DNA from: a virus
IMG/VR virus record: IMGVR_UViG_3300020408_000005
Coordinates: 1 to 64,000 of that record
Strand: one strand, 5' to 3'
Length of the DNA stretch: 64,000 nucleotides
Positions 20,289-54,315 of the stretch are shown here, one piece after another (within the stretch, counting starts at the first letter, position 1; every line of letters starts with the position of its first letter). Below the pieces are notes generated by a model that had not been told where the DNA came from, did no database searches, and saw nothing but the letters and a program-made list of their open reading frames with translations. The position numbers were made by a program, and so were the translations under genes.

Positions 20289-20318
20289 TGTTTATTAAGG
20301 ACACTATCGCCTCTTTGA

Positions 20319-20326
20319 TATTTATA
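20319..20326 (-). promoter_or_regulatory. Late promoter of the tail-fibre gene
   Basis: The minus strand reads TATAAATA, identical to the T4 late promoter core, 31 bases upstream of the fibre ATG and immediately after a terminator hairpin. Confidence 0.75.
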
Positions 20327-20338
20327 AGCAAAATAGAA

Positions 20339-20355
20339 AGGGACCGACGGTCCCT
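20339..20355 (-). terminator. Terminator hairpin after the coiled-coil gene
   Basis: The sequence AGGGACC-GAC-GGTCCCT is a perfect 7-bp stem with a three-base loop, six bases after the stop at 20361. On the minus strand it is followed by TTCTATTTTGC, a moderately T-rich tract. It separates the DUF4815 transcript from the tail-fibre transcript. Confidence 0.65.
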
Positions 20356-20360
20356 AACGA

Positions 20361-33124: not shown

Positions 33125-33132
33125 TATTTATG
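33125..33132 (-). promoter_or_regulatory. Late promoter of the gp10-like gene
   Basis: The minus strand reads CATAAATA, a NATAAATA match overlapping the stop codon of the YHYH protein gene and 24 bases before the gp10-like ATG. Confidence 0.5.
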
Positions 33133-34503: not shown

Positions 34504-35255
34504 TTAGTCGTCGTCGAAGATTTGTGTAGGTGTGAAGTTGTCAACCGTTGTTGCACCGATGTTGACGGTAAGAACAGCAGCAGTTGATAGAACAGGGATT
34601 GCACCGTTAGATGTGATACCAACACGATATTCATCATTTGTATCTGCCTGTGTAGTTCCAGGAGTTTCGTATGTAGCACTGGTTGCTCCACTGATATTAT
34701 TCCAACTATTTGTTCCATAATCTTTCTTCTGCCACTGATATGAAAGAGTTCCGTTATTAACGTTAACTGCTGAACCCATATATGGATGATTGCCACATAC
34801 GTAATTAAGAGTAGCAGGAGCATCTGATGCAACTGTGATGCTGACACTACGTGTTGTAGCAGCAGCAAATCCTGCTGCGTATGTTGCATAATCTGCAACT
34901 TGATTTCCATTAAGACGATATACAACACCAGTCTCATATCTTTCAGTTCCACCGTATGCGTCTGCATTCTCACTGAAGTAAATTGCGTGAGTAGTATTAG
35001 ATGCGTCATTTTGATTGAACTGATAAGTTGCTCCACGAACAAATGTAAGTGTTGGTGCTTCAGTATTTTGTGTAAACTGACCTCCTGTGAGGTAGTATCC
35101 TTTACCAGATCCTTGATTGTAGTAAGGATGATTTACAGATTTACTATCAACTAAAACTGAGTAAGCAACAACATTAGATATTGTTACTGTTGCTGCAACT
35201 TGGAAGATAGCAGTTTGACCTTGGTTAACAGTAATATTTCTAGGTGCTTCAGTGA
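34504..35255 (-). other. Ig-like domain with an inserted cupredoxin-like domain at the giant's C-terminus
   Basis: The Ig-like segment starts with APRNITVNQGQTAIFQVAAT and resumes with LSYQWQKKDYGTNSWNNIS and STAAVLTVNIG. Between them are about 115 residues with THAIYF and LNYVCGNHPYMG, a cupredoxin-like pattern with His, Cys, His and Met. The neighbouring YHYH protein has the same Ig-like domain without the insert. Confidence 0.6.
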
Positions 35256-38200
35256 TTGTTATAAAGTTCTCAATAACTCCTGTTCCACCAGTCTCAGGTA
35301 TAAAGTTAGGATCGTAAATATCAATACCACCATTTAATGCAGGTCCTGTAGGTCCTAAGAAATCATCTGCAACAGTTGTGTTTGCAGTAATTGCAGGTAA
35401 TGTATAACCTTGACCTGCGTTCTTAACATCAATCCTTGCAACACCGACAAGTGCTTTAATACGTCCACCAAATCCTGTTGAAGATATAACATCAACTTGT
35501 GGTCTTGTACTATAACCATCACCAGAGTTTGTTAATATCGCATTAGTAATACGTCCCTTCTCAATCTCAGCAAGTGCAGAAGCATTACGTCCTTTAACTG
35601 CTCCACCGTACTCAAATGTAATTAGAGAGTTAGATGATTCAATAAGAGCAACTGTTCTTGTTTCTTCTTCACCATCAATTCTAAGTTCATCACCTGCTTC
35701 AATAGGTGGTACAACTGTTGCTGCGATAACGTCAACATCAGAACCAACATAAGAGAATGCAACGAAGGTTGAACCTGCACGAGGAACTTCAGAGAAGATA
35801 ATTCTAGAACCAACAATTTCAAAACCAATTCCAGGTTCCTGTATAACACCATTTAACTGGCATATAATATTATTCTCAGGTAAGATTGTATTTGACTGTA
35901 CACCATCAGTTAGAGTCAATGAGTAGAATACTCCATTTAACTTCAAGTTGAATGAGTTACGTAATGAGTCAAAGTCGAATGATATATCATCTAATTGTCT
36001 TAACTTACCTTTATATACACCGTGGAATGTTGATCCTATAGCAGGTGCTTCAGTAAATTGTATATTATCTGAGAATGCAGTAAATGCGTAATCAGCACCA
36101 GGTGGTTGTAAGATACCATTTACAAAGATCATCATATGTCCTGCGGGATCTGGGAAGTATTGTGTACCATTTCCTTGAGTTAGTTTGAATGCTTTTTGTA
36201 CACCATCAAATCCTCTAAAGAATCTACGTACTCTACCTCTCAATGATCTAGCAGATGAACAAGCACCTCTGAAACCATTATCTCCAATAATTTGTGAGTT
36301 CTTCTGGAATGTTCCTTGTGTTCCTTCTAGATGTAAAACAGCACGAGTACCAAACTGTGTAATCTTAGCAATCTTACCATATGCAGTTGTATCTGTTATT
36401 GTGACTGCACCAATAGTTGTATATACAGATGGGAATAGAGTTCCGACTGGTACTTTTGCTAATTGATATTGTGTATTACTTGCAATATCGCTTATTGTCA
36501 CACCTTCTGGAGTTCCAGTTTCATTTGCAACAAATACATAATTGGTGTTTGTATCAATCTCAGTAACAGTCACTGTCCAACCAATACTAATACCACCAGA
36601 TTGAATTTGTAACACGTCACCAACGTTAAATGTATCACTAACTCCAGTATCAGTAATTAATGCAGTATATGTAAGTCTTGTAATTTGCCTACCGTGTACA
36701 TATTCACCGAAGTTAGGTAATGTAACGAACGATTCAATCTCAATAATTTGATCAGTAACAGATCCATAGATAACGTCTTGGGGTTTAAACTCTCCAGTTA
36801 CTGTGGAGATGTCGTAAGTGATTCTACCACTCTGATTATCAATTAGAGCACCATTATTGTTTCTAACAATCAAGGCAGTTGCTTTAGATCCAGTATCTTT
36901 AGAGAAAAACTTATCAGTTGCAATAAATTCACCCTGACGGAAGTTAACAAGAATCCTATCGTGCTCGCCAACATATGTACAGGTACCACCAGATGTAACA
37001 CCTTCAATAATGTCACCTGCTGTAAATGTTCCATTATAATCAATTAGTTTAATATATGTCTCGTTATCGGTAGCAAGAACTTTACCAGTATTTGATGTAG
37101 CACCTTGAACAACAACCATCTCACCATTCTGAATCTTAATACCAGTTCCACCACCTTGTGCAGAGAATGTATTACAGGTCATATACTTTGCCTGATACAT
37201 AACGTCTGCTAAATTATCTTCCATACGAACTATCTGAGCAGTAGCACCAGAGGTTCCACCATAGATAACATCAGCAAGGTTGAAACCTGCTTTGATTGGT
37301 GTTGGTACATCACGTGTTCCAAAAGTTGTAGGTACACGATCTACACCTGGATCTACACTAACAACAAGTGTATGTAATTGTGATGGAGTTCCTGGAGTTA
37401 GAACTATTGGTTCTCCATCAATGTATTCTGTAAGAACTATTTGAGTAGGTGTTGAATTAGGATGGATATAGTAAACTGATCCGTCTAGTTCTGCAATATT
37501 AGATCCAAGAACAATATACTCAACTCTGTCATATGGTTCAAAGTTATTAGCAACGTTTATAACTCCATTAGAAACAGCAACACCTGCATCAAACTGTGTT
37601 CTTAAGTATGTTGTTGGGAATTCTGAGTATTGTAATGCAACTAATATTAAATGGAATAGTTGATATAACTTATGGCAAGCAGTTGCAGTAGGACGTAATT
37701 CTCTATCAGGATTAGTTCCATCAATAGTGTAAAGAGGTTGGTTAGCAAATGTGCCAGGTTCGGGAGCAGTTCCTTTCAATATATGATCCATCAAGTCTCT
37801 AATCATCCTTGCGTGATAAAGAAGACGAGTTCTGAATAAGTTTGGATATGCTACGAAATTGCCATCAGCGTCAAACCAAGAATTGATGAGTTGCAGTGTT
37901 CTAGCATTACCATTTGTAATGAAATCATATACAATCGCTTTCTGTATTGGTTCAGCAAACGAAGCATCTCCTGCATAACCTGGATATTGACTTAATGTAC
38001 TTTCATATGATTCTAATCTAGTATATGTGTCATTGTACATTAACAATCTTGCAGATTGCTTATACATCTCTGTACCACTTCCAAGACCGTGAAGAAGTAT
38101 TTTGAATAGTACGTGTGCAGCAGATGTAACATCGTAACAAGTTCCACCTTTATATACAGTGTTAGTAGTAACAGGTGCAGTTCTAGTTATAGTTGCAAGA

Positions 38201-41200
38201 TGACTTCCATTACCCGCTGCTGCTGTGGTAATAGTATTAATAAGTATCTCCCAAAGGGTATTAATGGCAGAACTCTGTGTGGTGCAGTTTCCGTTACCTG
38301 CTGAGTCGTAAGTTATAGTTATGTCACGTCTAATAGCACGTTCACCTGTAAGTGGCCATTCTAGTGGTAGTGTTCTTGTTATACCAGTTAAGTATGCTGT
38401 AGGATTGCTTGTATTTGAACTATCAAAGAGATTAATAGGAATACCCATCAATGAAGCGATAGATGCTGCTTCGTTTACACAACGTGTTTGAGCACCACCT
38501 GTATATACAGATACTGCATTTGCCTGAGCACTTACGAATGAGTGAGCGTAGTTACCTGCTGTTGTAGTTCCTACAAATACTGTAAATGTATTTGTGGTTG
38601 TAGCAGTAATCGGTAAGTTTGCATTTGCAGCAGGGTCTGTGATACGAGGGTAACTATGATTTGTAGCACCACCATCCATAGTGCAAGTAAATACAAGACT
38701 ATTTGTTTTGATTCTAATGCTGTCATTTGTTGTAAATGTATGTCCATTAGATGTAATTCGTAAGTTACCTGATGTTGGGAAATATTCTACATTTGTAGGA
38801 GTTATAGTTGTATTACCAGAACTTTGATCAACGGTAATTGTTCCGTCATATACAGCATTACCTTCAGTTACACCATTTGTAGTAATAATTTCCTGTCTCA
38901 TTACTTGAGTAGCAATATCTCTTGCTTCTTGGAAGATATATTTAACTTCTGCTGCTTGGTTGCTGATATGTTGTATAGCATTACCAACTGTGATGTAGAA
39001 CTCACTTGAATACCACATACGGTTGTTACCACCGTGTTTTAAGTTAAAGACTAATGCTTCAAGTAAATCTACAACGTCATCAACACAAGACTGATAATCA
39101 TAACCACCAGAGAATGCCAATCCTGGGTATTGTGACATACCACGACCAACAGCGGTTGTAGCAATAAATCTTATATTATTCTCAATCTCATTTGCAGCAT
39201 CATAGTAACCATTAGTTGTAGCATTTTCATAATAATCATCTCTTGGTGCTGCTTGTCCTAATCCACCTGTTACTCCTTCATCCTCATAGGGAGTAAACCC
39301 TAAACGGTTTCTGATGGCGAGTATGCACATATCACGTGCTAACTTAAAGGCATAAGTTGTTTCATCAGATTGAGCAGTTACGTGACTTAATCCCAAGTCT
39401 GAATTCAAATATAATGCAGCAGCATCATATGATTCACTATTACCACCAAATCTTAAATCGTGTGCTATAGATTCGATAATATCAACAATATCATCTTCAC
39501 AATTAACCTTACCACCTGGAACTCTGAAACCTTTAGATTGTGCAAAAGATGTCTTAGTTAAAATATCAACTGCTTCACCCGCAATAGTTTTAGCATTCTG
39601 TACTAAAAGATTAGCAGCATCAAGATCTCTATCAGATCCTGTATATGCTTTAGGATCTATTGTAATAGTCTCATCACGATATACAGGTTCATCTGTGTAT
39701 AACATCTGATAGTAATCAGAGAAATCAAGAGCAACTTGAGCAGGGTTCTCATTTCTACCAATCAATAAACCTTGTATTGCTTTTTGTGCTAACTTCTTAG
39801 CATATTCAATCGCATCAATCATCGCAAGCAATTCATCTTCAATATAATTGATGTTAGTCTCATTATCGAGATAACTATCAATCATTGCTTGAGTTTCAAA
39901 GTTACCACCTGTAACTAAGTCACCTGCAATGGCAGGAAGTATATGATCTCTAATATCTCTTACACATTTTGCTCTATTAGGTATTGTTAGTTTATTTACT
40001 GTTGAGAAACCAACTTGTATTTGATATTTGTTCTCAATGTAGAATACTGATTCATCAGCGATTGCTTTTCTATTAAAGTAAATTAAATCAGCACCATCTC
40101 TAAATCTATGACCTGTAGGTCCGATAACATCTAGTAGATCATCTACAAGAGTCATAATATCATCTTGTATTGTTTGAGATGCAGGAGATGAGAAGTAATT
40201 AGGAACACGAACCTTAGTTGAGTATGTTCCTTCTAAATTTGTCTCATCTAATGTAATTACATCAATACAAAGTTTTGCAACTTCTCTCCAAGTATAGATT
40301 GATTGTAATTGCTCACCACCAATATGTTGTAAGGCACCAGATCCTTCAATGTAAGCACGACCAACAATAGTTGTTTGGAAGTTACCACCTGATATAAGGT
40401 CATCAATAATAGCAGGTATAATATATGATTTTGTATCTCGTAAACAAACATTTGATCCATAACCACTCATACCACCATCACCAGGGATTACGAAATCAGG
40501 GTATCTATATTTAAGACGACCAACTGCTTCTTCAGCGATGTAATCAATATTTTTCTTTATTATATCAGCACACAATCTATATTCTTCACGACTTAGATCA
40601 ACACCTTCAGTAGTAAGTTCAGAACGCCATAATTCAACTTCATCAGCGTTAGCAGTAGATATTATGTGATTAACGTATGTTGCATATACTGCACTCTTCT
40701 CCATAGGGAATGGTGCTTCGCCAAGAAGTGCGAATGATACGTTTGTACTATCGTTGAAGATAATAGGGGGAGTAAAACTACTATTGTACTGGGAGATTCC
40801 TTTGTAGATTACAAGATTATCAATCCAACCATTGAAAGGATTACCATTATTCCATCCTGCACCAACAGTGATCTTACTATTTGCGTTGTAATTATTTGTA
40901 TCAGTATATGTGCCAACCTCTGAACCATTTACATATAATTTAGTGACACTTGTAGAACGAGATACTGCAATATGATACCAAGTATTGATTGTAGTAATAG
41001 CAGAACTAGCAGTAATTACATCACTTGCTCCAATGGATAAACGAAGTGACTGACCAGACATTAATATACCTAGTTTAGCATCAGATGAAGATTCTCTAAG
41101 GTCAATAAGTCTCTGTACACCAGTAACTGAAGCAGGACGTATCCATAACTCCATTGTATAGTCACCATTAGCAGCATCTGCTCCATCACCAAATAACACA

Positions 41201-44200
41201 GCGTTACTTGATGGGAAAGTAACATATGAACCAGATCCAGTAAATCTTAGTGAACCAGTATCAGTTTTAAATGTTAATTTATCTTGAGATACGTTTGCAT
41301 ATGTAAGTTTAGAGTTGGTTATTAATTCACCTGCTTGTAATACGCCACTGATTTGTTTTGAGAAGATCCACTTGTTACCTGCATTAGATCCTATGACATC
41401 ATATGTTGCACCAGATGTAATTGCTCTTATAGTATCACCAAATCCAAATTGTCCACCACTTGATTTGTCTTGGTAGGCGTGTTTTGCACAACGTAAAGTC
41501 TCACCATCTACAAAAGCGTAAGGAGGAAGAACACGAGGTACATTAGTAATTGACCATTGATATGTTGCAGGATCTCCACCTGTAGGATCTTCTAGAGTAT
41601 CAGTAATGATTCTCATAAAGGATGTTATAGCGTTTGCCTGATTAACACAACTATTAGTGTATCCCGCATATGCAGCAGAAGGTGCAGTCTCAGTTACTGC
41701 TGCTTCAAATGCTGCTACTGTTCCTGGAGATGCAGTTGATCCAAGATTAGTAATCAAAATATTCATTAATGTAGTAATTGCTGATGCAACTGCCTGACAA
41801 GTTGGATTTGCAGGATCAGCAGTTATTGTTAGATCTTTTACTTGATTCCAGTTATGAGATCCTGCTTTAGTCCAAGTATTGTTTCTCATTACCTCAATGG
41901 CAATATCTCTTGCCTTAGTAAAAGCATTTACAATAGTATCTCTATCACCAGATGTTACACCATACTGTAGAGTTTTCTTAGTTGCTTTATAAACAAAGTT
42001 ATTACCACCGTGTGCTAAGTTATAAACCATCGCTTCAAGAACATCAACAATATCAGATAAACAATGAACATCTCCACCTGATACGTTATATCCTGGATTT
42101 TGTGTTTTAGCATAATGTAATGCTTCATATGCAATAAACCATTTATTAGCAAGAATTAGATCTCTTGCGTCACCGTGACTATTGCTTATAACAGCAAACT
42201 CTGCGGTAATAGTAGGATCTCTGTATTGTGGTAAATTTGTTGTATTAGTATTAATTACTTCATTACGAATACACTGAATTGCTAAATCACGTGCTTTATT
42301 AAAGGCATAAATTGTTTGTGCAACTTCACCATCAACGTGATATATTGCATTACCTTGTACATATGTGTTAGCAGCATCCCAGATTTCTGAGTTGCCATCA
42401 ACTTCTAATTGATATGCAACGATATTTAAAATATCTACAATATCATCTTCACAATCTCTATCTCCACCTAATGATGGTACTGTAAATGATGGATAGAATG
42501 CTTTCATCAATCCAACTGCTTCTTCAGCAATGAATCTATCATTCTTTCTTATTAAAACAGCAGCATCAAATGAACGTTGATCGTCTACACCTACTAATGA
42601 AGCATTATCATAGTAGATTTGTTTATTACGTATTGAGTCACCTGCTGCAAATTGTGATCCTGACAGATAATTATACCTAATTTCTTGGTTTCTTACCTCT
42701 TCAAAGTCTAAGAAGTCTTGGTTATTAGCAGTTCCTGCCTCATATAATTCTTCTGGATTGATAACTGTCTCAGAAATATTGTCTAAGATAGTATTTGGAT
42801 ATGTAATTGAAGGAACACGTTGGAAAATAAGACCAAAGAATGATGATGGAGGTGATAAATCAACAGTATCAATGATTTGTTGTGATACATCGTCTGTGTA
42901 TGGTGCAATTACAGTAACTCTTGCAGCAATTTTAGATGCAGCAGAGTAAATTGTATCATTAAATCTGATATTAAATTCACCAGTTTCAAATGCAGCAGTA
43001 CCAGATGTACGAGAAACAACTAAATTAGCATCTACAACACCATCTCTAAGGTTATTTTCTTCAATAATTGCAAAATCACCTTGTAAATTTGTAATTCTTT
43101 CACCTTGCTCATATATTGTCTTACTTGTTATACCATTTACAGCACTTAATACACCATCAAATCCAGTAGATGATGCTAAAACATTGTCATTTATTTGGAA
43201 ACTACCATTCTGATCAATAATATCGATATAATCTACACCAGTATCAATAACAGTTGCAGTTCCTTCATTCTGTAAAGATCTTACAGTCTTACCTGTTGTT
43301 GGGAAAATACCAGATGTTGTACTAAATGTAAATCTTGTGATATTAATTTGAGAGAATGTAAGATTTCTAAACTTAATTCTTGAAGGTGCTTTAGGTGGTT
43401 CAGAAAATACGACAGATGGACCAGATGTTGTGAATGCAGTTCCAGGAGATTGAGCAACACCATTAATAAGAATTAATAATTGATCATCAGTTGCAGTTAC
43501 AGATTCACCTTCCACTGTTAATGCAAATTGTGTCTTAATTCCATTGAAATCAGTTTCAATATTATCTAATTTTTTAACAATAGAAGTTAAGATTTCTTCA
43601 GAGTTAGTAAGTCTTCTTTGTCTGAATAATACTTCAGTGTTATTAAACTCTGTATATATTGGTTGTGAGTTAGCAAAAGAAGTGATTTGATTAATATTAG
43701 TAGCACTAAAGATATTAACTTCTTTAACAAGATCGGATACAACTTTTCTTCCAGATATATCTTTACCTGCTGCAAGTGCCAGTTCACCAAACATATTAAA
43801 TCCAACTGGATGGTTAGTTTCTAAAATACTCTTTCTCCAGTCATTAATAGGAGTTTGTGATTTAATCACATAAGAGAAATTCTGATAGAAGTAACTATCT
43901 TGAATTTTTTGAACAATCTCAGATGGTTTACCAACATCATCAATAAACTGACCAGTGGTAGTTGTCATTGAGTCAATATTCAATGTACCACGAGCAATCG
44001 ATAAGTTATCAATTAAACCAGATGCACGAGATACCTGTGCAGTAACACGCTCTCCAGTTGTCCAAGTTCCAGTGTAATTTTCTAACTTAAGGATTCTAGG
44101 TCCAATCTGCCAACCTTCATTTTCTGATACATATCCTATTGCAGTTGCTGTTTCTAAAGATAAACCTTGATATACGAGTTCTCCTCTTAAGAAACGTGAT

Positions 44201-47200
44201 GTCTCAACTATAGCAGTTGCTAAACCACCAAATACCTCGGTAAGAAGAATCTGACGACCATCACCTTGAGTTAAGAATGTAATAAAGTTACCAGACTCAG
44301 CATCAACCTGTGTTAGTGCTATTCTAAGTTGATCTGCCTCAAGTGAATTTGCTTCACCTGCAATAGCATAGTAAGTAGTTGTAGAACTCAAACTAACCAA
44401 ACCTGCTGAACTTGGTTTTGGTAGAATACCAACTGTAGATCCTAAATCTTCTGCTCTAAGTTGAATAGCAGCACCAGTTGTAATACCGTGTGGGAAGTTA
44501 AACTGTAGATAACCCAAGTCAAGGTTTACAACATAGTTAAATTCTGATTTAAGTGTAACTGTTGGTTCAGAAGAATATCCAGATCCAGGATTCTTAATTA
44601 AAACTTCAGAAAGTCTATTATTTTTGATAATTGCTTCTGCTTCAGCACCTGTTCCACCACCACCTTCAATGACAACTCTAGGAACAGATGTGTAACCAGA
44701 ACCAGGATTGGTAATCTTAATTTCAGATAAAAGAGCAGTATTGAATAGTTGTAAGTTAACTGGGAATGTAATCTCAGGTCTTAAGGTGTAATCGTGAGAA
44801 TAACCAAAACCAAATTCGTTATTTTTAAGTTTCTTAATCTTACCGATACTTGTACCTTGTAAGAATACAGATGCACCAGATCCTTCATTAGGAATTACAA
44901 CTTGTAAATCACCACCAGATCCTTGTAATAAAGATCCTAATATTCCTGGAATTTTATCAATATCAATAGATGCAGTAGTATATCCTTTACCTGGAGATGT
45001 TAATTCAACAGCAGTAATAACACCTGTCAACTCACCATCATCTGAAACTGTAATATTACATAGACCACCTTCACCATCTCCGTCAATAACAACATTATAG
45101 TAAATACCATTAATGTATTCTGTACCACCAGATATGATACGAATCTTCTCAATTTCTCTGTTAGATGCTATATCAGTAACAATAGGTAACTTCTGATAGA
45201 ATCCACCTGGATTTACCAGTTTGATATTTGAAATAGGACCGATTGCTTTAGTAGAAGTTGTGCTATAAGATGCTCTTGAAACTCCTGTTTCAGTTACTCC
45301 TAAAGGAGCATTTGTTTTTTCTGGTTCTACAAGAAGTGGGAATGTAAATTCGGTATCACTTACTATATTATTAATTCTAAATGTACCTTTGTAAGGTGTT
45401 TGTATAACGTCAATAAATGAGACAGGACCAACAGGTGAATTAGATGGAAGAGTTCTTGATGGATCAAAGTAATATGAAATATTAGTAACATCCTCATCAA
45501 CAATAAACTTAACAAGTGGTTTAGGTGATGTTTGATCAGTTAAACCTGGGATACCTTCTCTAACAATGTTTACAAAAGGATATTCCAATTTATATTGGTT
45601 ATCCTTAGAGAATGACATATAATATCCAAAGTTAGATGGATCGTCAAGGTCAAATATGTATTGATGTCCACGAACAAATAATAATTCTGGATGTTTAGCG
45701 TAAATATTAACGTTTGATACTGATGAACTTGCAAATGTAGGATCTTGTACAGCAGTTGATCTTAATCTATATGTAAATGTTCTAGTATCTAATACCTCTT
45801 CTATAAAGAATGATCCACCATATTCTGTAGTAGTAAATCCTTCTACAAATATAATTTCGTTTGCACTAAAATTGTGCTTACTATTAGATACACAGAATAC
45901 TAAATCTGTAAATGTTAGTGGACCAGATGGTATTACATCTTTAGCAAGATTAGATGTAAGATGGAATTTCTTAACACCAACTAAACCTGCTATTGTTATA
46001 ATTTTACCAGTTGCATCAAATGTTGCAGATAAACCAACTGCCTGTGCATCAAGAGTATCACCCTTAATAAAGTTTGAATCTGAATATACTGCTTCAATTT
46101 TTATAATGTAATCTTCAGCAACAAATGGTTGCCAAGTAGCAAATTGTCCTAGATTGCCAGTAGAGAATGGAGTATTTGCTAAATCAACATCAAAACTACC
46201 TGCGTCACGAGTATATACCCAGTTAATATTACCATCAGTTACAGTACCAACTGTATGAACTGGAGCAGTAACACCAGAAACTGCTGTAGTTCCTGATGTG
46301 TAAATCTTCCCATCATTATAAACCTCATCACCAACTGTATAAGGATTATTTGTTACCCACTGAGGTATTGTTGTCTCAACTAAAAATGTTTGTGCTATTG
46401 TGTTTCTATCATTTGCACTAGATTTAAGTAATTTTGTAGTATCAAATGTACCGATAATATTACCAATATCAACGCTATCAGTTCCAACATTAACGATAGT
46501 ACCATATGCACTAACTACATCTTGACCACCAATTACAGAATACTGTTGTAGTAAAGATCCTTTTGTAAAAGATGCTGTCTGATTAAATGATACTGTCTTA
46601 ACAGTGTCTATTGACTGATATACTGCATCACGAATATAGAATTTGGGAATAACAGTTGTACTTAATAGAAGTTTTCTACCAAGAGGAGTTGGAATAGTAG
46701 CAGTTCTACTCTCATAAATTTGATCTGTAGATACAAATGAGTAAGTTCCTTCAACATTATTTGATACAACATCAGCATAATCAAGTATTTGTAGACCCGC
46801 AGGACCTAATGCCCAATCCCCAGAAGTAATCACTTGGGTATTAAACGTAAAGTCGTTCACAGCGGCTGCGACTGTTATCTGCATACCTGCTTCAACAGTG
46901 CTTAGTGTATATGTTCCAGTTTTAGTTTGTTCCCTGTCTAACTTGAAGCAGAATCCTGCTACCTTTTTATTAGAACCAACTGCCTGAGCAGGAGTAAATG
47001 TATCTGTATATTTTGCAAGACCTGATACAGAAATATTATCTACCCAACCACCAATAGAAGTAGCAACAGCAGGAGATGATTTACCAAATAATAGTATAGA
47101 TTTAAGTTGTGTATCTATAGTTGTACTTGTTACATCAATTTGTTCAACACCATTGATGAATACTTTATAAACGTAAGTACCAACACCAGGAGTTGATTTA

Positions 47201-50200
47201 ACAAGAGCAACGTGTATAAATGCTTCGTTATTAAATGTTGACCAGTTAGTTGTGGATGTAGATAGGTAAGTATTAGAACCTAACTTTAAACGAACTTTAC
47301 CAAAATCAGCACTTGTAGAATCACCTTCTAATTCTACAACTGCATTATCACCTGTAGTAGGAGTAACATCAAAAATATTTGGTGTAGAACTTTGAGCATT
47401 ATATTGTGCTTGCCCAATAGCAATCCACGCTTCAACTGTATAATTTGTTGCTACATCAGCACCCCAATCCAATGACAGTCTATTTGCAGCAGCACTTATA
47501 TTTGCTGACTGTGCACCATACTTCCATTTAGAAGTATCTAATGTAGGATCTACAGACCATCCTGCTGTTAAATTATTGTCATATGTATCATCTCCAGTTA
47601 TGGTTGATTCAAAGTTTAATATTGCCAATTCATTTGATTCAATCTTATCACCTGCAATTAAAGTATCACCAGAATTATCGTTTGTAATTGTAGTTGGATG
47701 GAAACCAATACCATTATTTTGTTTTAGTGATGAAGCATTTAGTATATTACTTGTATTCCAAGAAACTTTAAATATAATCGCTCTATGATCATTAAAAGCA
47801 TATTTAACGTATGCACCAACATCAATATTACCAAATATATCAAATTGTACACCAGTTGCTTTAATATCTTCAAATGTTCCACTAGGGGCAAGCATTTTAA
47901 CTACTGAAGGTGTCTTATAATCAGTAGGTGCAAACTTCATATACAAAATACCCACATTCTTGGTATTTGATATTGAATATGCAGTAGCAGTTACATATCT
48001 AGAACCATAATCATCAATAGTAATCTTAGGATTGCTGAATCTATATGAAGTATTGCCAAACTGTCTACTCCACTGAACCTCAATAGTAGCAGTATCATAA
48101 AAAGTTTCACCAATTATTATTTCACCAGTTCCCGCAGGATCATTAACACCAACAAATATAGAAGTATTATTACTTGTAAATTTAAGATCAGTCATTTGTT
48201 CTGACCCTGCTGCTGTACAGATCTTACGTTTTTCTTTAATGGAACCGTCTGTATCTAACAGTGCAATCCACATATCATCTGGATTAGGTGAGTTAGTATC
48301 AGTTGTACCACCAATATAGATCTGACCATCAGAGTCAATAGTAAGAGATGAAATATAATCTCTTCTAGTAGAACCAGATATACCTGCTATTTCACGTTGC
48401 CATACAGGAACAGCAGTAGGATTATTGAATCCATCAAAACCAGAGGTGTATTTGGCAACAACTAAATCTGGATTGTATGTAAGGTTTACATTATTGGGTA
48501 TTGTTTCACCAACAACGTAGATAGAATGTGGAGATGTATTTTCTAAGTAAATTCTGTTGAACACACAACGTTTGTCACCCGCAGCAGGTTGTAGTGGTGC
48601 CATTGTTCTTGTCCACAATAATCTACCATCACTATTGAACTTAGCAATTAAACCTGCCGAATCACCATCAAGATCATCTGCTTCACCAACAACATAGAAT
48701 GTTCTATCATCAGCAATAGCAATATCTCTAATTTTTACAATTTTTTCAACACCACTTGTATTTTCATTTAATAATGTAAGAGCATAATTTGCTTTTTTAT
48801 ATCTTTGTGGATGAGAAACCCTAACTTCTGGAGGTGTTGATGCTGAATACTCAGATCCAGAGTTTATAATATTAACATTATTGACTGCACCAGACTCTTC
48901 TCTAACAAGTTCTAACTTAAAATCTTGACCAGTTCCACTAACAATTTCATAATTAGGTGGTATATCTTCATTGTAACCTAGACCTTGTTGACTTATAGTT
49001 ACTGTCTCAACACCCGATACAACTTTTACTCTATATGTTTTATTAGTTTGATCAATAATAGGAATACTATCAACAATAATTTCATCACCAACTCTTAAAT
49101 CGTGCTCATCAGCGGTTGTAATTCTTCCCAATGGAGCATCATTCACCATAGATGATGTATATTGAGTAATATCAATACCTTTTACAGAATCAACTTTAGC
49201 AGATGCACCATATCCGCCAGTATCAGTGTTATCAAAGAATAACTTATCGTTAACTTTATATGATATACCTGGGTTTTCAACTACAAATCCACTAATCTTA
49301 GCATCTTCAAATTTAGTAGTAGTATCAATTTCAATATCAACCTGTGATCTTGTAGAAACTCTAGGGTAGTAATCAAATAATTGTAGTACAGGTTCTTCTG
49401 AGATATAATTTAACTCATCTTGCTCTAACTGTGATATGACACCATCACGGTTTGTATCTTCTATTTCAAATATAAACTCTTCTCCTAGTTCTGTTACAAG
49501 AGTATCTGTGTCTTGGTTAGGTGTACGATCAATATCAATATCAACATCTTCATATGGATCACGGAATCTAACAACATCAAGAGGAATATTTGTTTGCACA
49601 GCATCTTGACTGTAGTTCCAAGTATCAGGTTGTGAGTATAGTTGTGGACCACATACATATGGAAATACAGGTAAACCTGCTTCTGATGCGTCTATAGAAA
49701 CAAAGTAAGCGTAAGTACCTTCAGGATATTCAGGTGTTTTACAAAAACGTCCATTGTATTGGTCTAAATCACCTGCTTGGAAAACATACTCATAGTCTTC
49801 TATGTAAGTTCCTGCGGGTTTGTCTGATAGTAAAGGTCCATCAACACGAACTGGATTTGGGTTAGTGGCAGAATCAAATAATAATATTGGTTTGATTCTG
49901 TAAGATGATACACATCTCTTAATACCAGATGATTGATCAGCAGCATCAATATAACCATATGGTCCGTATATTGGGTTTCCATCAAATGCCCAACCAATAA
50001 TAGGAGAATGTCTTAATCCAGATGATAGTTCTCTAAGAAGACCTGTTGAAGGATCTTTAAATACGTTATCACCAAGAACATAACGTAATTGTTTGGGATC
50101 TGATAGGTGAGCATATTCACCACCATATTGTGTATTATATCCTGCAAAAACATAACCACGAGCAGGGTCTACTAATCCTGATAGTTCAGTTTCTAAGTTT

Positions 50201-53200
50201 TGTGTCCACTCAAATACGTTTGCAGTAAATGATGCACCTTGACCTATAGATTCGCAACGAATAGTTGTAAGACCTGTTGTATATCCTATACCTCTGTTTT
50301 CTACAGATATACTTAATACTTTACCTTTATCTTCACCAAATGTTCCAATAGTTGCTTTTGCAACAGCACCATATCCATCTCCATTAATAATAATTTTAGG
50401 TGGAGAAGTATATCCATTACCAGATGCAATAATAGCAATAGAAACTATACGACCATTAATTATAATTGGTTGTGCAACTGCACCTTCACCAGAATTTAAT
50501 TTAATATTTGGAGAAGATGTATAACTTGATCCTGCTGTATCTACGCTAATAGATTGAATAGGACCTCTTACCTCGGCAGTAGCAGTAGCACCTGTTCCAT
50601 TGCCTCCTGAGATGCTTACAGTGGGTGCTGAGGTATATCCTTGACCAGGTGTCTCAACAAGTACTTTACTTACAACTCCGTTTGTAATAACAGCAGTCGC
50701 AGTAGCACCAAATCCACCTCCACCAACAATAGAAACTAAAGGAGATGCTGTATATCCAGAACCACCTGCTGTAACATCAACACTGAAGAGTGATCCATCT
50801 ACAATAACACTAGCAGAAGCACCTGATCCACCACCACCAGATATTTCAATAAGTGGTTTAGATGCAGCGTCATATCCTGTACCAGAATTTACAATATCAA
50901 CACTTGTTATTCCACCAAACTTAGTCTTAGTTTGAGACTTATAAGACCAAACAGAAACACCATTTACCCAAGCACCAATAGGACCAAATGATAAATCATC
51001 ACGTCGTGATACAGTCTCTACAATTCTAGGAAATCTACTTAGTTTTCTTTGGTTTCCTGGGAGTAAAGCAGACCCAATGAACGGACCAACTTGATAGTTT
51101 GGAATACCTGTTGTAGCAACATAAGAGTAATTTGCGTTGAAGAACGTATTTTGTACATTGGTTGTAAACTGATTAATTGAGTTATTAATTGCTTCTTCTG
51201 TTGATTTACCTTTATTAAGGTCAACAGACATCAAGATATTACCTTGAGGTGCATTAGGTGCAGGGGCAGCAATCTGATATGAGAAAACAGTGTTACTTAT
51301 ACGAGATGTTACAGCAAATGTACCGTTAAAGATTGTTGGGTTTGCACCGTATATTGTTACAGAGTCACCAACAAGAAGACCGTGGTTATTTGTAGTATAT
51401 ACAGTTGCAGTTTGATTGTTAAGTCCACCTGGTTCAATATTTGTTACAGAGATTAATTTCTTAACATTATACAACCAAGATGTAATTCTTTGATCTGTAG
51501 ATGAAGATCCAAGAGATGCAACATTTAATTTATCACTAGGAAGATAATATGAACCAGTATCGGTAAGAACTGTTCCTGTTGCTTCAGCAATACCAAGAAC
51601 ACGTAATTTTACTTCAGTATCTTGTCCTCTATTGATATAACAGAAAATATCAGAGTATATTGTTGTACCTGCATCCCAATCTTCTACAACACCGTTTTTA
51701 GAACGTGTACACTCAATAAACTGGTTTAATGATTTTTCTTTGTATTGTATTCTTTCGTTATCACCCATAATGATGATACCGTTCCTTTCTGGCCACCCAA
51801 TAGTAGAGTCAACAGTAATAATAGACTCGGTTTCTGTTAAAGGTTCTACAAGTGTTGTTTTATAAGGTATTGTAAATTTTCCTTCTAAAGTTTCTTCAGA
51901 TATTGACAATTCATAGATTGTTCCAACACCAGTATTGATAGCAATAACGTTTTCAACCAAACAAACCGCATTTCCAACACTTGTATCTACATCATCTGCA
52001 TATTGGAATAATTGAGAGTCTAATATATCAACAGGACTTCCACTTATCAATTCTACACGAATAATTGTATCAACAGACCAAGTTGCAGCAGATGGTTTAA
52101 TTAATTCATCTTTTGGATATGAAACATCAACATTTTCTGAAAATAAGACTTTAAATAAGTACTCTGTGGCAGTTTTTGTACCTTTAGACACATAGAAGTC
52201 TTTTATTGTCTTAATAATCTGTGGAGCATTGATTTTAGTGTAATCAATATCTGCATCAGGTAAGAACTGGTTTACAAAACGTTCATATAGTGTTCTAGAG
52301 AATAAGGCATCAAGATTCTCAATAGTGCTTCCAATTTCGTGAGATGATTGAATACTTTGTGCTTCATTTGTAAATACTTGATTTCCCCTAATATCATATG
52401 AAGAAACACCTGATACACCTCTCTTACAATTTACAAATTGAGATGGTTGATACTCTGAACCGTGTGAGTGTACTGTAAAACCTGTAACTTCTTGGAATCC
52501 AACATCACAAGACGCTGCTGCTGCTTTTGGACTTGCAATAAAGACTTGTGGTGGTTCATCTTCAGAATATCCGTCACCAAAACTTGTTATATTAATATCA
52601 GTAATTTCACCATTGAATATAGTTGCTACAGCAGTTGCACCAGTACCACCAATAGGATTACCTGATAAATCTTTTCTATTATCAACAATATAGACAGATG
52701 GTGCATCATTGTAACCACTTCCACCAGTTAATAGTTGTATATCAGTAAGTTTAGTCCCTGTTACCTTAACGTCTAATATTTGAGCACCCACAGGATCAAT
52801 AATACGACATCTAGGAGGAGTTACATATCCTCTACCAGGAGAAATCATTTCAATCCTGTCTACTCTACTCTGATCATCTAAAATTGCTACAGCAGATGCT
52901 CTAATACCAATAGGATCAGCAGGTTCATCAATATAAACTATTGGTGGTGTAGCGTAGTTAAGACCTCTTGTTAATACTGTAATAGATCCATCAACTACCT
53001 TACCATTATCATTTAGATCTATTTGTGCGTCAGAAATAGTTGCACCACCAGGATTTGTAAAACTTATGGATGGAATAGAATCATATCCAGAACCTGATGA
53101 TTGAACGTTGATTGCTGTAACTTGACCACTAGCATCATCAACAGTTACAGTTGCTTTTGCTATAGAACCAGAAGGATCGGCAGGTGTATCAAATACAACT

Positions 53201-54315
53201 ATTGGTGGGTTTGCAGATGTATAACCTTGACCACCATCAATTAGTTGTACATTTTTTATACCGTTTATAAGTGCTTGAGCAGTTGCTTCTTTACCAGAAA
53301 CACCTACAGGAGTTAATACAGTTACTTTTGGTGTAAAATTAATTCTATATCCACTACCACCATCTTTTACTATTAAATCTGTAACTTTATTATCATTGAC
53401 TCTTGCAATAGCAGAAGCACCTTTACCAAATTGAGGTGCAATAAGTTCTACAGATCTAATTGTGACTTTATCACCGTCAGAAACTGCTTCTTTAAGTATT
53501 AAGTGATCGTTATATACTGTAAAATCTGTAAATGCAGTTTTAACTACACCGTTTACTGCAATCAAACAAGAAATTGTAGATAATGGAGAGTATGGAGCAG
53601 TATTTCTTCTTAAAGGTAATATTTTTGCACCATCAAGAGACAAATCTATATTAAGTGTGTCTAAAACTCTAACAGGAACACTTGTATAACCTATAAGATA
53701 CTCAATTTTAGTTATTTGAGTAGATCCAAGAGTATTTGTGGGTGGAGTCTGGAATCTAATATTTGACCCATCAAGAAAATAGTCAATATTAGGTTCTAAC
53801 TGCAAACCATTTACTATAACACGTAAATATTCGACAGAGTTTGGTGTTATTGGTGTTCCAAGTAATTTTAATTCAAAACTTGTTTTTACACCATCAAACT
53901 GTGTTCTTATATTTTCTAATTCTTGTATTTTTTTATCAAATTCTACTTGGTTGACACCTGGAGTGAATACAACCTCTGGAGATTTTGTTGTTTCTTCATA
54001 AAATATAATTTCATTATCAATCTTGATAGTTCCGTCTTTCTCAAGAAAATTATCAACGGTCTCTACAGTAATATTTTGATCAGCAGCACCAACACGATCT
54101 AATACAACAGATTCAGATGAAATAAAGTTAGGATTATATTCTTCACTCGAAATATCTGTATAACTCAGTATATTGTTTAATATATCATACGGTTTACCAC
54201 TTTTCTCCTGTGACTTGTAGTATTGTACTAACAAGTCTACAAAAGACTGATCCTCTTCTTTTATAAACGCAGGGATCTGGTCCTGTAACCGTTGGGATAC
54301 CTTAACTGACTTCAT
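34504..54315 (-). CDS. Giant baseplate protein in the gp7 position (6603 aa)
   Basis: One uninterrupted 19.8-kb frame. The position after gp25-gp6 is that of the wedge initiator gp7 (1032 residues in T4), but direct similarity to T4 gp7 is not visible, so the name is positional. The N-terminus (LQDQIPAFIKEEDQSFVDLL) and FYVSKGTKTATEYLFKVLFS near residue 690 are typical of large marine-phage baseplate proteins. Then come Gly-Tyr beta repeats (about 293-596 and 1129-1356), a YHYH domain (1432-1559), propeller-like repeats (1859-2230), a LamG-like domain (2229-2446), a second LamG-like domain (4356-4516), six helical modules (3918-5144), five Cys-led helical motifs (4168-5413), ING-type repeats, and a cupredoxin-like domain nested in an Ig-like domain (about 6370-6600). 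It is probably a baseplate scaffold carrying host-contact domains. Confidence 0.85.
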   Translation of the reverse strand: MKSVKVSQRLQDQIPAFIKEEDQSFVDLLVQYYKSQEKSGKPYDILNNILSYTDISSEEYNPNFISSESVVLDRVGAADQNITVETVDNFLEKDGTIKIDNEIIFYEETTKSPEVVFTPGVNQVEFDKKIQELENIRTQFDGVKTSFELKLLGTPITPNSVEYLRVIVNGLQLEPNIDYFLDGSNIRFQTPPTNTLGSTQITKIEYLIGYTSVPVRVLDTLNIDLSLDGAKILPLRRNTAPYSPLSTISCLIAVNGVVKTAFTDFTVYNDHLILKEAVSDGDKVTIRSVELIAPQFGKGASAIARVNDNKVTDLIVKDGGSGYRINFTPKVTVLTPVGVSGKEATAQALINGIKNVQLIDGGQGYTSANPPIVVFDTPADPSGSIAKATVTVDDASGQVTAINVQSSGSGYDSIPSISFTNPGGATISDAQIDLNDNGKVVDGSITVLTRGLNYATPPIVYIDEPADPIGIRASAVAILDDQSRVDRIEMISPGRGYVTPPRCRIIDPVGAQILDVKVTGTKLTDIQLLTGGSGYNDAPSVYIVDNRKDLSGNPIGGTGATAVATIFNGEITDINITSFGDGYSEDEPPQVFIASPKAAAASCDVGFQEVTGFTVHSHGSEYQPSQFVNCKRGVSGVSSYDIRGNQVFTNEAQSIQSSHEIGSTIENLDALFSRTLYERFVNQFLPDADIDYTKINAPQIIKTIKDFYVSKGTKTATEYLFKVLFSENVDVSYPKDELIKPSAATWSVDTIIRVELISGSPVDILDSQLFQYADDVDTSVGNAVCLVENVIAINTGVGTIYELSISEETLEGKFTIPYKTTLVEPLTETESIITVDSTIGWPERNGIIIMGDNERIQYKEKSLNQFIECTRSKNGVVEDWDAGTTIYSDIFCYINRGQDTEVKLRVLGIAEATGTVLTDTGSYYLPSDKLNVASLGSSSTDQRITSWLYNVKKLISVTNIEPGGLNNQTATVYTTNNHGLLVGDSVTIYGANPTIFNGTFAVTSRISNTVFSYQIAAPAPNAPQGNILMSVDLNKGKSTEEAINNSINQFTTNVQNTFFNANYSYVATTGIPNYQVGPFIGSALLPGNQRKLSRFPRIVETVSRRDDLSFGPIGAWVNGVSVWSYKSQTKTKFGGITSVDIVNSGTGYDAASKPLIEISGGGGSGASASVIVDGSLFSVDVTAGGSGYTASPLVSIVGGGGFGATATAVITNGVVSKVLVETPGQGYTSAPTVSISGGNGTGATATAEVRGPIQSISVDTAGSSYTSSPNIKLNSGEGAVAQPIIINGRIVSIAIIASGNGYTSPPKIIINGDGYGAVAKATIGTFGEDKGKVLSISVENRGIGYTTGLTTIRCESIGQGASFTANVFEWTQNLETELSGLVDPARGYVFAGYNTQYGGEYAHLSDPKQLRYVLGDNVFKDPSTGLLRELSSGLRHSPIIGWAFDGNPIYGPYGYIDAADQSSGIKRCVSSYRIKPILLFDSATNPNPVRVDGPLLSDKPAGTYIEDYEYVFQAGDLDQYNGRFCKTPEYPEGTYAYFVSIDASEAGLPVFPYVCGPQLYSQPDTWNYSQDAVQTNIPLDVVRFRDPYEDVDIDIDRTPNQDTDTLVTELGEEFIFEIEDTNRDGVISQLEQDELNYISEEPVLQLFDYYPRVSTRSQVDIEIDTTTKFEDAKISGFVVENPGISYKVNDKLFFDNTDTGGYGASAKVDSVKGIDITQYTSSMVNDAPLGRITTADEHDLRVGDEIIVDSIPIIDQTNKTYRVKVVSGVETVTISQQGLGYNEDIPPNYEIVSGTGQDFKLELVREESGAVNNVNIINSGSEYSASTPPEVRVSHPQRYKKANYALTLLNENTSGVEKIVKIRDIAIADDRTFYVVGEADDLDGDSAGLIAKFNSDGRLLWTRTMAPLQPAAGDKRCVFNRIYLENTSPHSIYVVGETIPNNVNLTYNPDLVVAKYTSGFDGFNNPTAVPVWQREIAGISGSTRRDYISSLTIDSDGQIYIGGTTDTNSPNPDDMWIALLDTDGSIKEKRKICTAAGSEQMTDLKFTSNNTSIFVGVNDPAGTGEIIIGETFYDTATIEVQWSRQFGNTSYRFSNPKITIDDYGSRYVTATAYSISNTKNVGILYMKFAPTDYKTPSVVKMLAPSGTFEDIKATGVQFDIFGNIDVGAYVKYAFNDHRAIIFKVSWNTSNILNASSLKQNNGIGFHPTTITNDNSGDTLIAGDKIESNELAILNFESTITGDDTYDNNLTAGWSVDPTLDTSKWKYGAQSANISAAANRLSLDWGADVATNYTVEAWIAIGQAQYNAQSSTPNIFDVTPTTGDNAVVELEGDSTSADFGKVRLKLGSNTYLSTSTTNWSTFNNEAFIHVALVKSTPGVGTYVYKVFINGVEQIDVTSTTIDTQLKSILLFGKSSPAVATSIGGWVDNISVSGLAKYTDTFTPAQAVGSNKKVAGFCFKLDREQTKTGTYTLSTVEAGMQITVAAAVNDFTFNTQVITSGDWALGPAGLQILDYADVVSNNVEGTYSFVSTDQIYESRTATIPTPLGRKLLLSTTVIPKFYIRDAVYQSIDTVKTVSFNQTASFTKGSLLQQYSVIGGQDVVSAYGTIVNVGTDSVDIGNIIGTFDTTKLLKSSANDRNTIAQTFLVETTIPQWVTNNPYTVGDEVYNDGKIYTSGTTAVSGVTAPVHTVGTVTDGNINWVYTRDAGSFDVDLANTPFSTGNLGQFATWQPFVAEDYIIKIEAVYSDSNFIKGDTLDAQAVGLSATFDATGKIITIAGLVGVKKFHLTSNLAKDVIPSGPLTFTDLVFCVSNSKHNFSANEIIFVEGFTTTEYGGSFFIEEVLDTRTFTYRLRSTAVQDPTFASSSVSNVNIYAKHPELLFVRGHQYIFDLDDPSNFGYYMSFSKDNQYKLEYPFVNIVREGIPGLTDQTSPKPLVKFIVDEDVTNISYYFDPSRTLPSNSPVGPVSFIDVIQTPYKGTFRINNIVSDTEFTFPLLVEPEKTNAPLGVTETGVSRASYSTTSTKAIGPISNIKLVNPGGFYQKLPIVTDIASNREIEKIRIISGGTEYINGIYYNVVIDGDGEGGLCNITVSDDGELTGVITAVELTSPGKGYTTASIDIDKIPGILGSLLQGSGGDLQVVIPNEGSGASVFLQGTSIGKIKKLKNNEFGFGYSHDYTLRPEITFPVNLQLFNTALLSEIKITNPGSGYTSVPRVVIEGGGGTGAEAEAIIKNNRLSEVLIKNPGSGYSSEPTVTLKSEFNYVVNLDLGYLQFNFPHGITTGAAIQLRAEDLGSTVGILPKPSSAGLVSLSSTTTYYAIAGEANSLEADQLRIALTQVDAESGNFITFLTQGDGRQILLTEVFGGLATAIVETSRFLRGELVYQGLSLETATAIGYVSENEGWQIGPRILKLENYTGTWTTGERVTAQVSRASGLIDNLSIARGTLNIDSMTTTTGQFIDDVGKPSEIVQKIQDSYFYQNFSYVIKSQTPINDWRKSILETNHPVGFNMFGELALAAGKDISGRKVVSDLVKEVNIFSATNINQITSFANSQPIYTEFNNTEVLFRQRRLTNSEEILTSIVKKLDNIETDFNGIKTQFALTVEGESVTATDDQLLILINGVAQSPGTAFTTSGPSVVFSEPPKAPSRIKFRNLTFSQINITRFTFSTTSGIFPTTGKTVRSLQNEGTATVIDTGVDYIDIIDQNGSFQINDNVLASSTGFDGVLSAVNGITSKTIYEQGERITNLQGDFAIIEENNLRDGVVDANLVVSRTSGTAAFETGEFNIRFNDTIYSAASKIAARVTVIAPYTDDVSQQIIDTVDLSPPSSFFGLIFQRVPSITYPNTILDNISETVINPEELYEAGTANNQDFLDFEEVRNQEIRYNYLSGSQFAAGDSIRNKQIYYDNASLVGVDDQRSFDAAVLIRKNDRFIAEEAVGLMKAFYPSFTVPSLGGDRDCEDDIVDILNIVAYQLEVDGNSEIWDAANTYVQGNAIYHVDGEVAQTIYAFNKARDLAIQCIRNEVINTNTTNLPQYRDPTITAEFAVISNSHGDARDLILANKWFIAYEALHYAKTQNPGYNVSGGDVHCLSDIVDVLEAMVYNLAHGGNNFVYKATKKTLQYGVTSGDRDTIVNAFTKARDIAIEVMRNNTWTKAGSHNWNQVKDLTITADPANPTCQAVASAITTLMNILITNLGSTASPGTVAAFEAAVTETAPSAAYAGYTNSCVNQANAITSFMRIITDTLEDPTGGDPATYQWSITNVPRVLPPYAFVDGETLRCAKHAYQDKSSGGQFGFGDTIRAITSGATYDVIGSNAGNKWIFSKQISGVLQAGELITNSKLTYANVSQDKLTFKTDTGSLRFTGSGSYVTFPSSNAVLFGDGADAANGDYTMELWIRPASVTGVQRLIDLRESSSDAKLGILMSGQSLRLSIGASDVITASSAITTINTWYHIAVSRSTSVTKLYVNGSEVGTYTDTNNYNANSKITVGAGWNNGNPFNGWIDNLVIYKGISQYNSSFTPPIIFNDSTNVSFALLGEAPFPMEKSAVYATYVNHIISTANADEVELWRSELTTEGVDLSREEYRLCADIIKKNIDYIAEEAVGRLKYRYPDFVIPGDGGMSGYGSNVCLRDTKSYIIPAIIDDLISGGNFQTTIVGRAYIEGSGALQHIGGEQLQSIYTWREVAKLCIDVITLDETNLEGTYSTKVRVPNYFSSPASQTIQDDIMTLVDDLLDVIGPTGHRFRDGADLIYFNRKAIADESVFYIENKYQIQVGFSTVNKLTIPNRAKCVRDIRDHILPAIAGDLVTGGNFETQAMIDSYLDNETNINYIEDELLAMIDAIEYAKKLAQKAIQGLLIGRNENPAQVALDFSDYYQMLYTDEPVYRDETITIDPKAYTGSDRDLDAANLLVQNAKTIAGEAVDILTKTSFAQSKGFRVPGGKVNCEDDIVDIIESIAHDLRFGGNSESYDAAALYLNSDLGLSHVTAQSDETTYAFKLARDMCILAIRNRLGFTPYEDEGVTGGLGQAAPRDDYYENATTNGYYDAANEIENNIRFIATTAVGRGMSQYPGLAFSGGYDYQSCVDDVVDLLEALVFNLKHGGNNRMWYSSEFYITVGNAIQHISNQAAEVKYIFQEARDIATQVMRQEIITTNGVTEGNAVYDGTITVDQSSGNTTITPTNVEYFPTSGNLRITSNGHTFTTNDSIRIKTNSLVFTCTMDGGATNHSYPRITDPAANANLPITATTTNTFTVFVGTTTAGNYAHSFVSAQANAVSVYTGGAQTRCVNEAASIASLMGIPINLFDSSNTSNPTAYLTGITRTLPLEWPLTGERAIRRDITITYDSAGNGNCTTQSSAINTLWEILINTITTAAAGNGSHLATITRTAPVTTNTVYKGGTCYDVTSAAHVLFKILLHGLGSGTEMYKQSARLLMYNDTYTRLESYESTLSQYPGYAGDASFAEPIQKAIVYDFITNGNARTLQLINSWFDADGNFVAYPNLFRTRLLYHARMIRDLMDHILKGTAPEPGTFANQPLYTIDGTNPDRELRPTATACHKLYQLFHLILVALQYSEFPTTYLRTQFDAGVAVSNGVINVANNFEPYDRVEYIVLGSNIAELDGSVYYIHPNSTPTQIVLTEYIDGEPIVLTPGTPSQLHTLVVSVDPGVDRVPTTFGTRDVPTPIKAGFNLADVIYGGTSGATAQIVRMEDNLADVMYQAKYMTCNTFSAQGGGTGIKIQNGEMVVVQGATSNTGKVLATDNETYIKLIDYNGTFTAGDIIEGVTSGGTCTYVGEHDRILVNFRQGEFIATDKFFSKDTGSKATALIVRNNNGALIDNQSGRITYDISTVTGEFKPQDVIYGSVTDQIIEIESFVTLPNFGEYVHGRQITRLTYTALITDTGVSDTFNVGDVLQIQSGGISIGWTVTVTEIDTNTNYVFVANETGTPEGVTISDIASNTQYQLAKVPVGTLFPSVYTTIGAVTITDTTAYGKIAKITQFGTRAVLHLEGTQGTFQKNSQIIGDNGFRGACSSARSLRGRVRRFFRGFDGVQKAFKLTQGNGTQYFPDPAGHMMIFVNGILQPPGADYAFTAFSDNIQFTEAPAIGSTFHGVYKGKLRQLDDISFDFDSLRNSFNLKLNGVFYSLTLTDGVQSNTILPENNIICQLNGVIQEPGIGFEIVGSRIIFSEVPRAGSTFVAFSYVGSDVDVIAATVVPPIEAGDELRIDGEEETRTVALIESSNSLITFEYGGAVKGRNASALAEIEKGRITNAILTNSGDGYSTRPQVDVISSTGFGGRIKALVGVARIDVKNAGQGYTLPAITANTTVADDFLGPTGPALNGGIDIYDPNFIPETGGTGVIENFITITEAPRNITVNQGQTAIFQVAATVTISNVVAYSVLVDSKSVNHPYYNQGSGKGYYLTGGQFTQNTEAPTLTFVRGATYQFNQNDASNTTHAIYFSENADAYGGTERYETGVVYRLNGNQVADYATYAAGFAAATTRSVSITVASDAPATLNYVCGNHPYMGSAVNVNNGTLSYQWQKKDYGTNSWNNISGATSATYETPGTTQADTNDEYRVGITSNGAIPVLSTAAVLTVNIGATTVDNFTPTQIFDDD
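38885..42565 (-). repeat. Six copies of a helical module in the giant protein
   Basis: Copies encode residues about 3918-4028, 4051-4146, 4581-4688, 4743-4849, 4903-5006 and 5041-5144. Each has an opening helix of the type N...IA.EAV, then a segment around YP.F.VPGG, an invariant C-x2-D followed by I, V or T, a GGN (DGN in copy 1) about 20 residues later, an HI or HV element in most, and a closing helix of the type ARD.AI..(I/M)RN. A LamG-like domain sits between copies 2 and 3. I do not recognise the module as a named family. Confidence 0.8.
50250..50930 (-). repeat. Tandem Gly-Tyr beta repeats in the giant protein
   Basis: Six consecutive repeats of about 36 residues follow the pattern VxSVxVxxxGxGYTSxPxVxIxGGGGxGAxAxA (for example LFSVDVTAGGSGYTASPLVS and VSKVLVETPGQGYTSAPTVS). 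A second series with longer spacers lies at about 52.5-53.4 kb. The same unit appears in the 623-residue, gp8 and 1104-residue proteins. Confidence 0.8.

Follow-up and report, generated by a model that had tools for sequence, protein, structure and literature searches.

Which protein does the frame of 6603 codons encode that follows the wedge gene gp6 in a T4-like cyanophage, and what are the helical repeats that it carries? The DNA analyzed here, hereafter referred to as the window, is a stretch of 64,000 nucleotides (positions 1 to 64,000) that forms part of the 70.5-kb IMG/VR record IMGVR_UViG_3300020408_000005. The two genes at the center of this question are:

34504-54315, minus strand: whole giant ORF (putative gp7), 6603 residues, family phrog_701
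54336-56423, minus strand: gp6 wedge gene, directly upstream of the giant (phrog_219, E 2e-194)

An intact giant reading frame in the slot after gp6

The giant gene is a single unbroken ATG frame of 6603 codons, while the longest open run in shuffles of the same bases was 128 codons, and its G+C content by codon position (0.47/0.43/0.16) is that expected of coding DNA. Contigs from other samples with 95-99% identity keep the long frame unbroken across the stretches compared. Intact ORFs occupy the same slot in the isolates P-RSM4 (6603 residues), S-SZBM1 (6619), ACG-2014d (6818), S-CREM1 (5422), S-SM1 (6180) and P-RSM6, whose version (8573) exceeds that of the window. Since near-identical contigs and isolates carry intact long ORFs, an assembly artefact is unlikely, as is the undetected frameshift that an earlier note on this DNA had named as one way in which its uninterrupted frame of 6603 residues might fail. 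The equal length of the P-RSM4 protein was discarded as a coincidence because the middle regions of the two proteins differ.

The frame belongs to the family phrog_701 ("virion structural protein"), whose genes span 5,422-8,573 residues in cultured cyanomyoviruses, in line with the statement of the earlier note that giant baseplate-linked ORFs are known from marine T4-like phages. Relatives of residues 1-600 were found in 383 phage records, nearly all of them from cyanophages, and the phrog_701 gene stands directly after gp6 in every isolate or relative viewed. Some records of the family already bear a gp7 label ("wedge initiator gp7"). Because cultured isolates carry it in this slot, in part under the gp7 name, the ORF is of a known kind; the giant gp7 itself is already known.

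In the window, gp25 and gp6 lie upstream of the giant, and connector and wedge genes, gp8 and VrlC lie downstream, neighbors that match the baseplate position between gp6 and the gp8-side genes originally described for it. The next gene after the giant, a connector-like gene at 33128-34495, has two segments in common with it, one related to the YHYH region (window 49648-50013; 52% identity) and one to the C-terminal region (window 34528-34773; 36% identity). Since these two segments are common to both genes, they can be read as a sign of module exchange between neighboring baseplate genes.

Relationship of the giant to T4 gp7

The domains of the giant outside its helical repeats are as follows:

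53980-54315, minus strand: gp7 core, first part, residues 1-112 (from compact relatives)
52402-53979, minus strand: G-x-G-Y repeat insert in the core beta-hairpin, residues ~113-638 (absent from compact relatives)
52036-52401, minus strand: gp7 core, FYxxKGT helical part, residues ~639-760 (matches T4 gp7 731-760)
49690-50130, minus strand: YHYH domain, residues 1396-1542 (HMM, E 5e-31)
43756-44082, minus strand: gp7 HPVGF segment, residues ~3412-3520 (matches T4 gp7 821-888)
40801-41232, minus strand: LamG/ConA lectin-like domain, residues 4362-4505 (HMM, E 2e-21)
35350-37374, minus strand: conserved phrog_701 C-terminal region, residues ~5648-6322 (family comparison)
34546-35238, minus strand: Ig-like/cupredoxin-like tail, residues ~6360-6590 (domains by eye, C-x2-H-x2-M by search)

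The giant had been thought to replace gp7 and to begin with baseplate-like sequence. The second of these observations was correct: residues 1-112 and ~639-760, which form one continuous domain in relatives with a compact N-terminus, correspond to the gp7 core, and the G-x-G-Y repeat insert splits this domain inside a beta-hairpin. A profile of the joined core, compared with all PDB sequences, gave two gp7 proteins, that of T4 included, as its sole significant matches (E 1.6e-4 and 2.2e-4). The comparison of the N-terminal region with gp7 that the earlier note had suggested, here an hhalign alignment of the core profile with T4 gp7, yielded an E-value of 5e-6 at T4 residues 731-760 (the FYxxKG helix). 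Eleven of 15 family members carry a match to the Pfam baseplate wedge model. A second T4 gp7 segment, which ends in HPVGF, recurs at residues 3440-3506 of the giant; the wider segment aligns with T4 gp7 821-888, a match that by itself is weak (PDB E 0.1). Some 2,650 residues lie between the FYxxKGT and HPVGF motifs, and a C-terminal extension of ~3,000 residues follows the gp7 segments. An AlphaFold model of a compact gp7-core relative was poor (pLDDT 52), which, like the weakness of the HPVGF match taken alone, counts against the gp7 reading. In the pelagiphage HTVC008M, the slot protein (1016 residues) aligns with the two gp7 segments of the giant at E 2e-8 and 5e-14 and, with weak scores, with their two counterparts in T4 gp7, in order; at the sequence level, it bridges T4 gp7 and the giant.

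Because both T4 gp7 core motifs are kept, and in order, "replaces gp7" is the wrong description: judged by its sequence, the giant is the T4 gp7 orthologue, enlarged more than six-fold by inserts and a C-terminal extension. A different assignment has been published for pelagimyophages and cyanomyophages, from which gp7 was stated to be missing and in which VrlC was suggested to fill its place (PMC7029224); the giant would then be a separate, peripheral fibre-like protein. We regard this as highly unlikely, given that the two gp7 segments recur, in order, in the giant as well as in the slot protein of the pelagiphage, and the VrlC protein of the window was rejected as a gp7 candidate since it has no similarity to T4 gp7 (BLASTP E 2.1). 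The gp7 segments of the giant likewise speak against the absence of gp7 stated in that paper (PMC7029224). The orthology shows a conserved wedge protein to be capable of taking up thousands of residues at a handful of insertion points.

As for the further domains, HMM searches confirm the YHYH and LamG-like domains seen before (E 5e-31 and 2e-21, respectively), and of the propeller there is a weak signal near residues 1980-2030 only. The cupredoxin-like domain proposed for the tail holds in part: a type-I-copper-like C-x2-H-x2-M motif was located by search, and the Ig/cupredoxin domain call itself was made by eye. This motif reads CGNHPYM (residues 6507-6513, window ~34780-34800) and, together with an upstream His, resembles a complete type I copper site.

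The helical repeats and phycobiliproteins

Profile searches define the following repeat units in the giant:

42235-42582, minus strand: phycobiliprotein-like unit U1, residues 3912-4027, CEDD (profile searches)
41854-42186, minus strand: phycobiliprotein-like unit U2, residues 4044-4154, CLSD (profile searches)
40222-40584, minus strand: unit U3, residues 4578-4698, CLRD, Cys4624 (Pfam Phycobilisome E 1e-5, profile, model)
39745-40107, minus strand: unit U4, residues 4737-4857, CVRD, Cys4784 (profile, AlphaFold model)
39280-39636, minus strand: unit U5, residues 4894-5012, CEDD, Cys4939 (profile, AlphaFold model)
38866-39216, minus strand: unit U6, residues 5034-5150, CVDD (profile searches)
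37768-38064, minus strand: diverged unit U7, residues 5418-5516, no Cys (E ~5e-9)

A BLAST comparison of the giant with itself found no internal repeats, but profile searches did reveal them, and in place of the two unnamed helical repeat families described earlier they show one, with six clear units at residues 3912-5150, followed by a seventh, diverged one (5418-5516). The LamG domain sits among the units, between U2 and U3. When a profile made of 51 phage units only was compared with the PDB, phycobiliproteins accounted for all 60 of the 60 best matches listed (top E 8e-8); the Pfam Phycobilisome model matches 18 of these 51 units. In the reverse direction, PF00502 matched the giant frame of this record and seven cyanophages (8/8 unit-bearing records) and neither of the two control genomes, T4 and HTVC008M. 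We modeled U3-U5 with AlphaFold from an alignment of 38 phage sequences (pLDDT 78), a prediction that may lean on phycobiliproteins in the training data. With this model, VIA-align returned phycobiliproteins as 50 of the 50 PDB entries listed (Z 15.2-16.5), with an rmsd of 2.1-2.8 Å over 131-148 residues for many entries, and Foldseek of the three-unit multi-domain model gave a probability of 1.00 with weak E-values (0.1-0.9).

Short helical bundles might come to resemble each other by convergence rather than by homology, and the low pairwise identity (~9-23% in structure alignments) and the marginal matches of single sequences to the PDB (E 0.19 and worse) would fit such an origin. However, the profiles match in both directions with no competing family, the units and the phycobiliproteins have a pattern of conserved residues in common (Asn, C-x-x-D, GG), and the predicted fold matches over 131-148 residues; convergence is, in our estimation, extremely improbable. 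On the strength of the profile searches and the model, the helical repeats are homologous to phycobiliproteins, and a domain mosaic that at first could not be named is now nameable in part. A search of open papers, with most subscription papers lying outside it, turned up no account of virion proteins that contain phycobiliprotein-like domains; automatic Pfam matches to phage units may already be present in databases.

At least 338 cyanophage records contain the units, which are present in no other named phage group (E 1e-5). The units are absent from T4, the SAR11 phage HTVC008M, the cyanopodovirus Syn5, Ma-LMM01, P-SSM2 and S-CBWM1, and from the four cluster C cyanomyoviruses examined. Some phages possess them in other tail proteins, beyond the gp7 slot. 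A cellular origin of the repeat was considered and set aside, as the five matches to genome contigs, of which four fall on marine MAG contigs assigned by binning to archaea or Flavobacteriales and the fifth on a contig of 188 kb from a Nonlabens assembly, are best read as phage DNA in assemblies. The giant unit-bearing ORFs in these Euryarchaeota-, Flavobacteriales- and Nonlabens-named assemblies most likely lie on misbinned or carried-along phage contigs.

Conservation and possible roles of the pigment site

Phycobiliproteins are light-harvesting antenna proteins. We scored the pigment site of the phage units at the position of Cys84/Asp87 of the phycobiliproteins. Among 506 distinct phage units, the chromophore Cys is present in 95%, the chromophore Asp in 93% and the Arg of CxRD in 51%; in the three-unit alignment (U3-U5), Cys and Asp are invariant in 38/38 sequences. 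There is one such Cys per unit and no conserved partner Cys within it. U3 and U4 of the window have a complete C-x-R-D, U1, U2, U5 and U6 have Cys and Asp only, and U7 is devoid of the chromophore Cys. Because Cys and Asp are held under selection, a functional ligand or covalent link at the bilin site is likely; an attached bilin would be the leading specific candidate.

We compared the occurrence of the units with that of the bilin lyase CpeT in 27 phage genomes. All 15 genomes with CpeT have units, and of the 12 genomes that lack CpeT, two have units (S-B43 and S-T4) and ten do not (Fisher p 8e-6; within Kyanoviridae p 8e-4), counts that are confounded by shared ancestry, with the unit-less phages of the Kyanoviridae coming mostly from one cluster. 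CpeT is also found in four of five uncultured unit-bearing contigs of >170 kb. In S-PM2 (segment 155000-182000), CpeT (8953-9480) is located upstream, at a distance of ~1.5 kb, of a tail ORF of 3779 residues with units (10929-22268 of the segment); the tRNA run that the record annotates inside this ORF may reflect a problem with the coordinates. In S-CAM1 (KU686192), CpeT (18277-18789) is located just upstream of a unit-bearing ORF (20148-24155). No coupling of the units to bilin reductase (PF05996) was seen in the phage genomes compared; P-SSM2 possesses the reductase and no units. The genome of S-CREM2, which has no units, encodes the S-type phycobilin lyase cpcV (24817-25269); according to the published report on this phage, it has neither psbA nor hli (PMC10665884).

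If the virion is loaded with bilin, at least the CxRD units U3 and U4 would covalently carry a phycobilin supplied by phage or host enzymes and attached by a phage CpeT-type lyase. The conservation of Cys and Asp, the presence of units in every CpeT-bearing genome and their absence from 10 of the 12 CpeT-less ones, the position of CpeT close upstream of unit-bearing ORFs in S-PM2 and S-CAM1, and its presence in most of the large uncultured contigs are all consistent with this. However, the co-occurrence is confounded by common descent, S-B43 and S-T4 have units and no CpeT, P-SSM2 (reductase) and S-CREM2 (lyase) have pigment genes and no units, and just about half of the units keep the CxRD Arg. 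Moreover, T-type lyases have been described for the Cys-153 position, not for Cys-84 (PMC10452541); CpeT, a T-type lyase, is classed for a different cysteine, which weighs against a simple coupling of units and CpeT. We consider covalent loading of these units somewhat unlikely, and take a similarly doubtful, marginally more reserved view of the broader proposal that virions carry bilin-loaded domains on baseplate and tail proteins, which the phage lyase and bilin synthesis genes would in part serve.

The phycobiliprotein fold could instead be a pigment-free structural or adhesive module whose Cys serves inter-domain or inter-chain disulfides or packing. The loss of the CxRD Arg from about half of the units and the missing Cys of U7 favor this, and disulfide networks are reported in the tail of phage Milano (PMC10811340). 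Yet each unit has a single invariant Cys with no conserved partner inside the unit, and the Asp that contacts the bilin is conserved together with it. We judge such a pigment-free role slightly more probable than bilin loading, though still less likely than not; another ligand may also be bound at the conserved Cys and Asp. Bilin-loaded virions, if true, would overturn the view that phage pigment genes only boost the host antenna. The repeats also open to direct test an old question, namely what purpose bilin lyases and genes for bilin synthesis serve in cyanomyoviruses.

Presence in the virion and a model of the baseplate array

T4-GC969, the slot gene product of S-SM1 (6180 residues, three units), is among the proteins found by mass spectrometry in purified S-SM1 virions (PMC3037559). 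The slot protein of S-CREM2, ORF122, which has 1937 residues and no units, was detected in virions with 91 unique peptides (PMC10665884). Both data sets attest to the presence of the protein, not to the persistence of one full-length chain. The giant could plausibly serve as a wedge subunit of very large size. Starting from the computed identity of the core and the computed fold of the units, we infer how the protein might dock, in how many copies, and with what contact to the host. The gp7 core would dock on the wedge of gp6 and gp25 in the manner of gp7, and because of this mode of docking about six copies would project a domain array from the baseplate rim. The YHYH, LamG and other domains might touch the cyanobacterial surface, and the phycobiliprotein-like domains may have been recruited from a light-harvesting fold to act as stackable modules for spacing or binding. 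The best explanation of the locus, which we hold with good confidence, is a marine cyanomyovirus gp7 orthologue with inserts and an array of phycobiliprotein-fold domains projected from the baseplate wedge.

Comparison with known systems

T4 gp7 (1032 residues) has in common with the giant the slot after gp6 and the FYxxKG core followed by the HPVGF segment. The giant is more than six times longer, and whereas the extra sequence of T4 gp7 is N-terminal to the core, that of the giant is placed within the hairpin of the core, in the gap that separates the two motifs and at the C-terminal end. The HTVC008M slot protein likewise has the core segments in order and the same gene order, but there are no phycobiliprotein-like units anywhere in its genome. 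The host of HTVC008M is a heterotroph without phycobilisomes. The phrog_701 proteins of cyanomyoviruses (P-RSM4 PRSM4_106, S-SZBM1, ACG-2014d and S-SM1 T4-GC969) are of the same family, slot and architecture, units included, and differ in the middle region and in unit number (3-10 unit matches per genome). Further large gp7 proteins (>3300 residues; loci L028, L064, L065, L067 and similar) form a second lineage, in which the core runs unbroken and is accompanied by an HPAGF segment and about two units.

The phycobiliproteins (C-phycocyanin, phycoerythrin and allophycocyanin; PF00502) resemble the phage units in predicted fold, in the conserved Asn and in the C-x-x-D chromophore motif, with their complete C-x-R-D being found in the window only at U3 and U4. 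They differ from the phage units in that the latter are tandem domains of a virion protein. Tandem phycobiliprotein folds that keep their pigment residues, within a baseplate protein found in hundreds of marine cyanophages, would put this fold to a new use.
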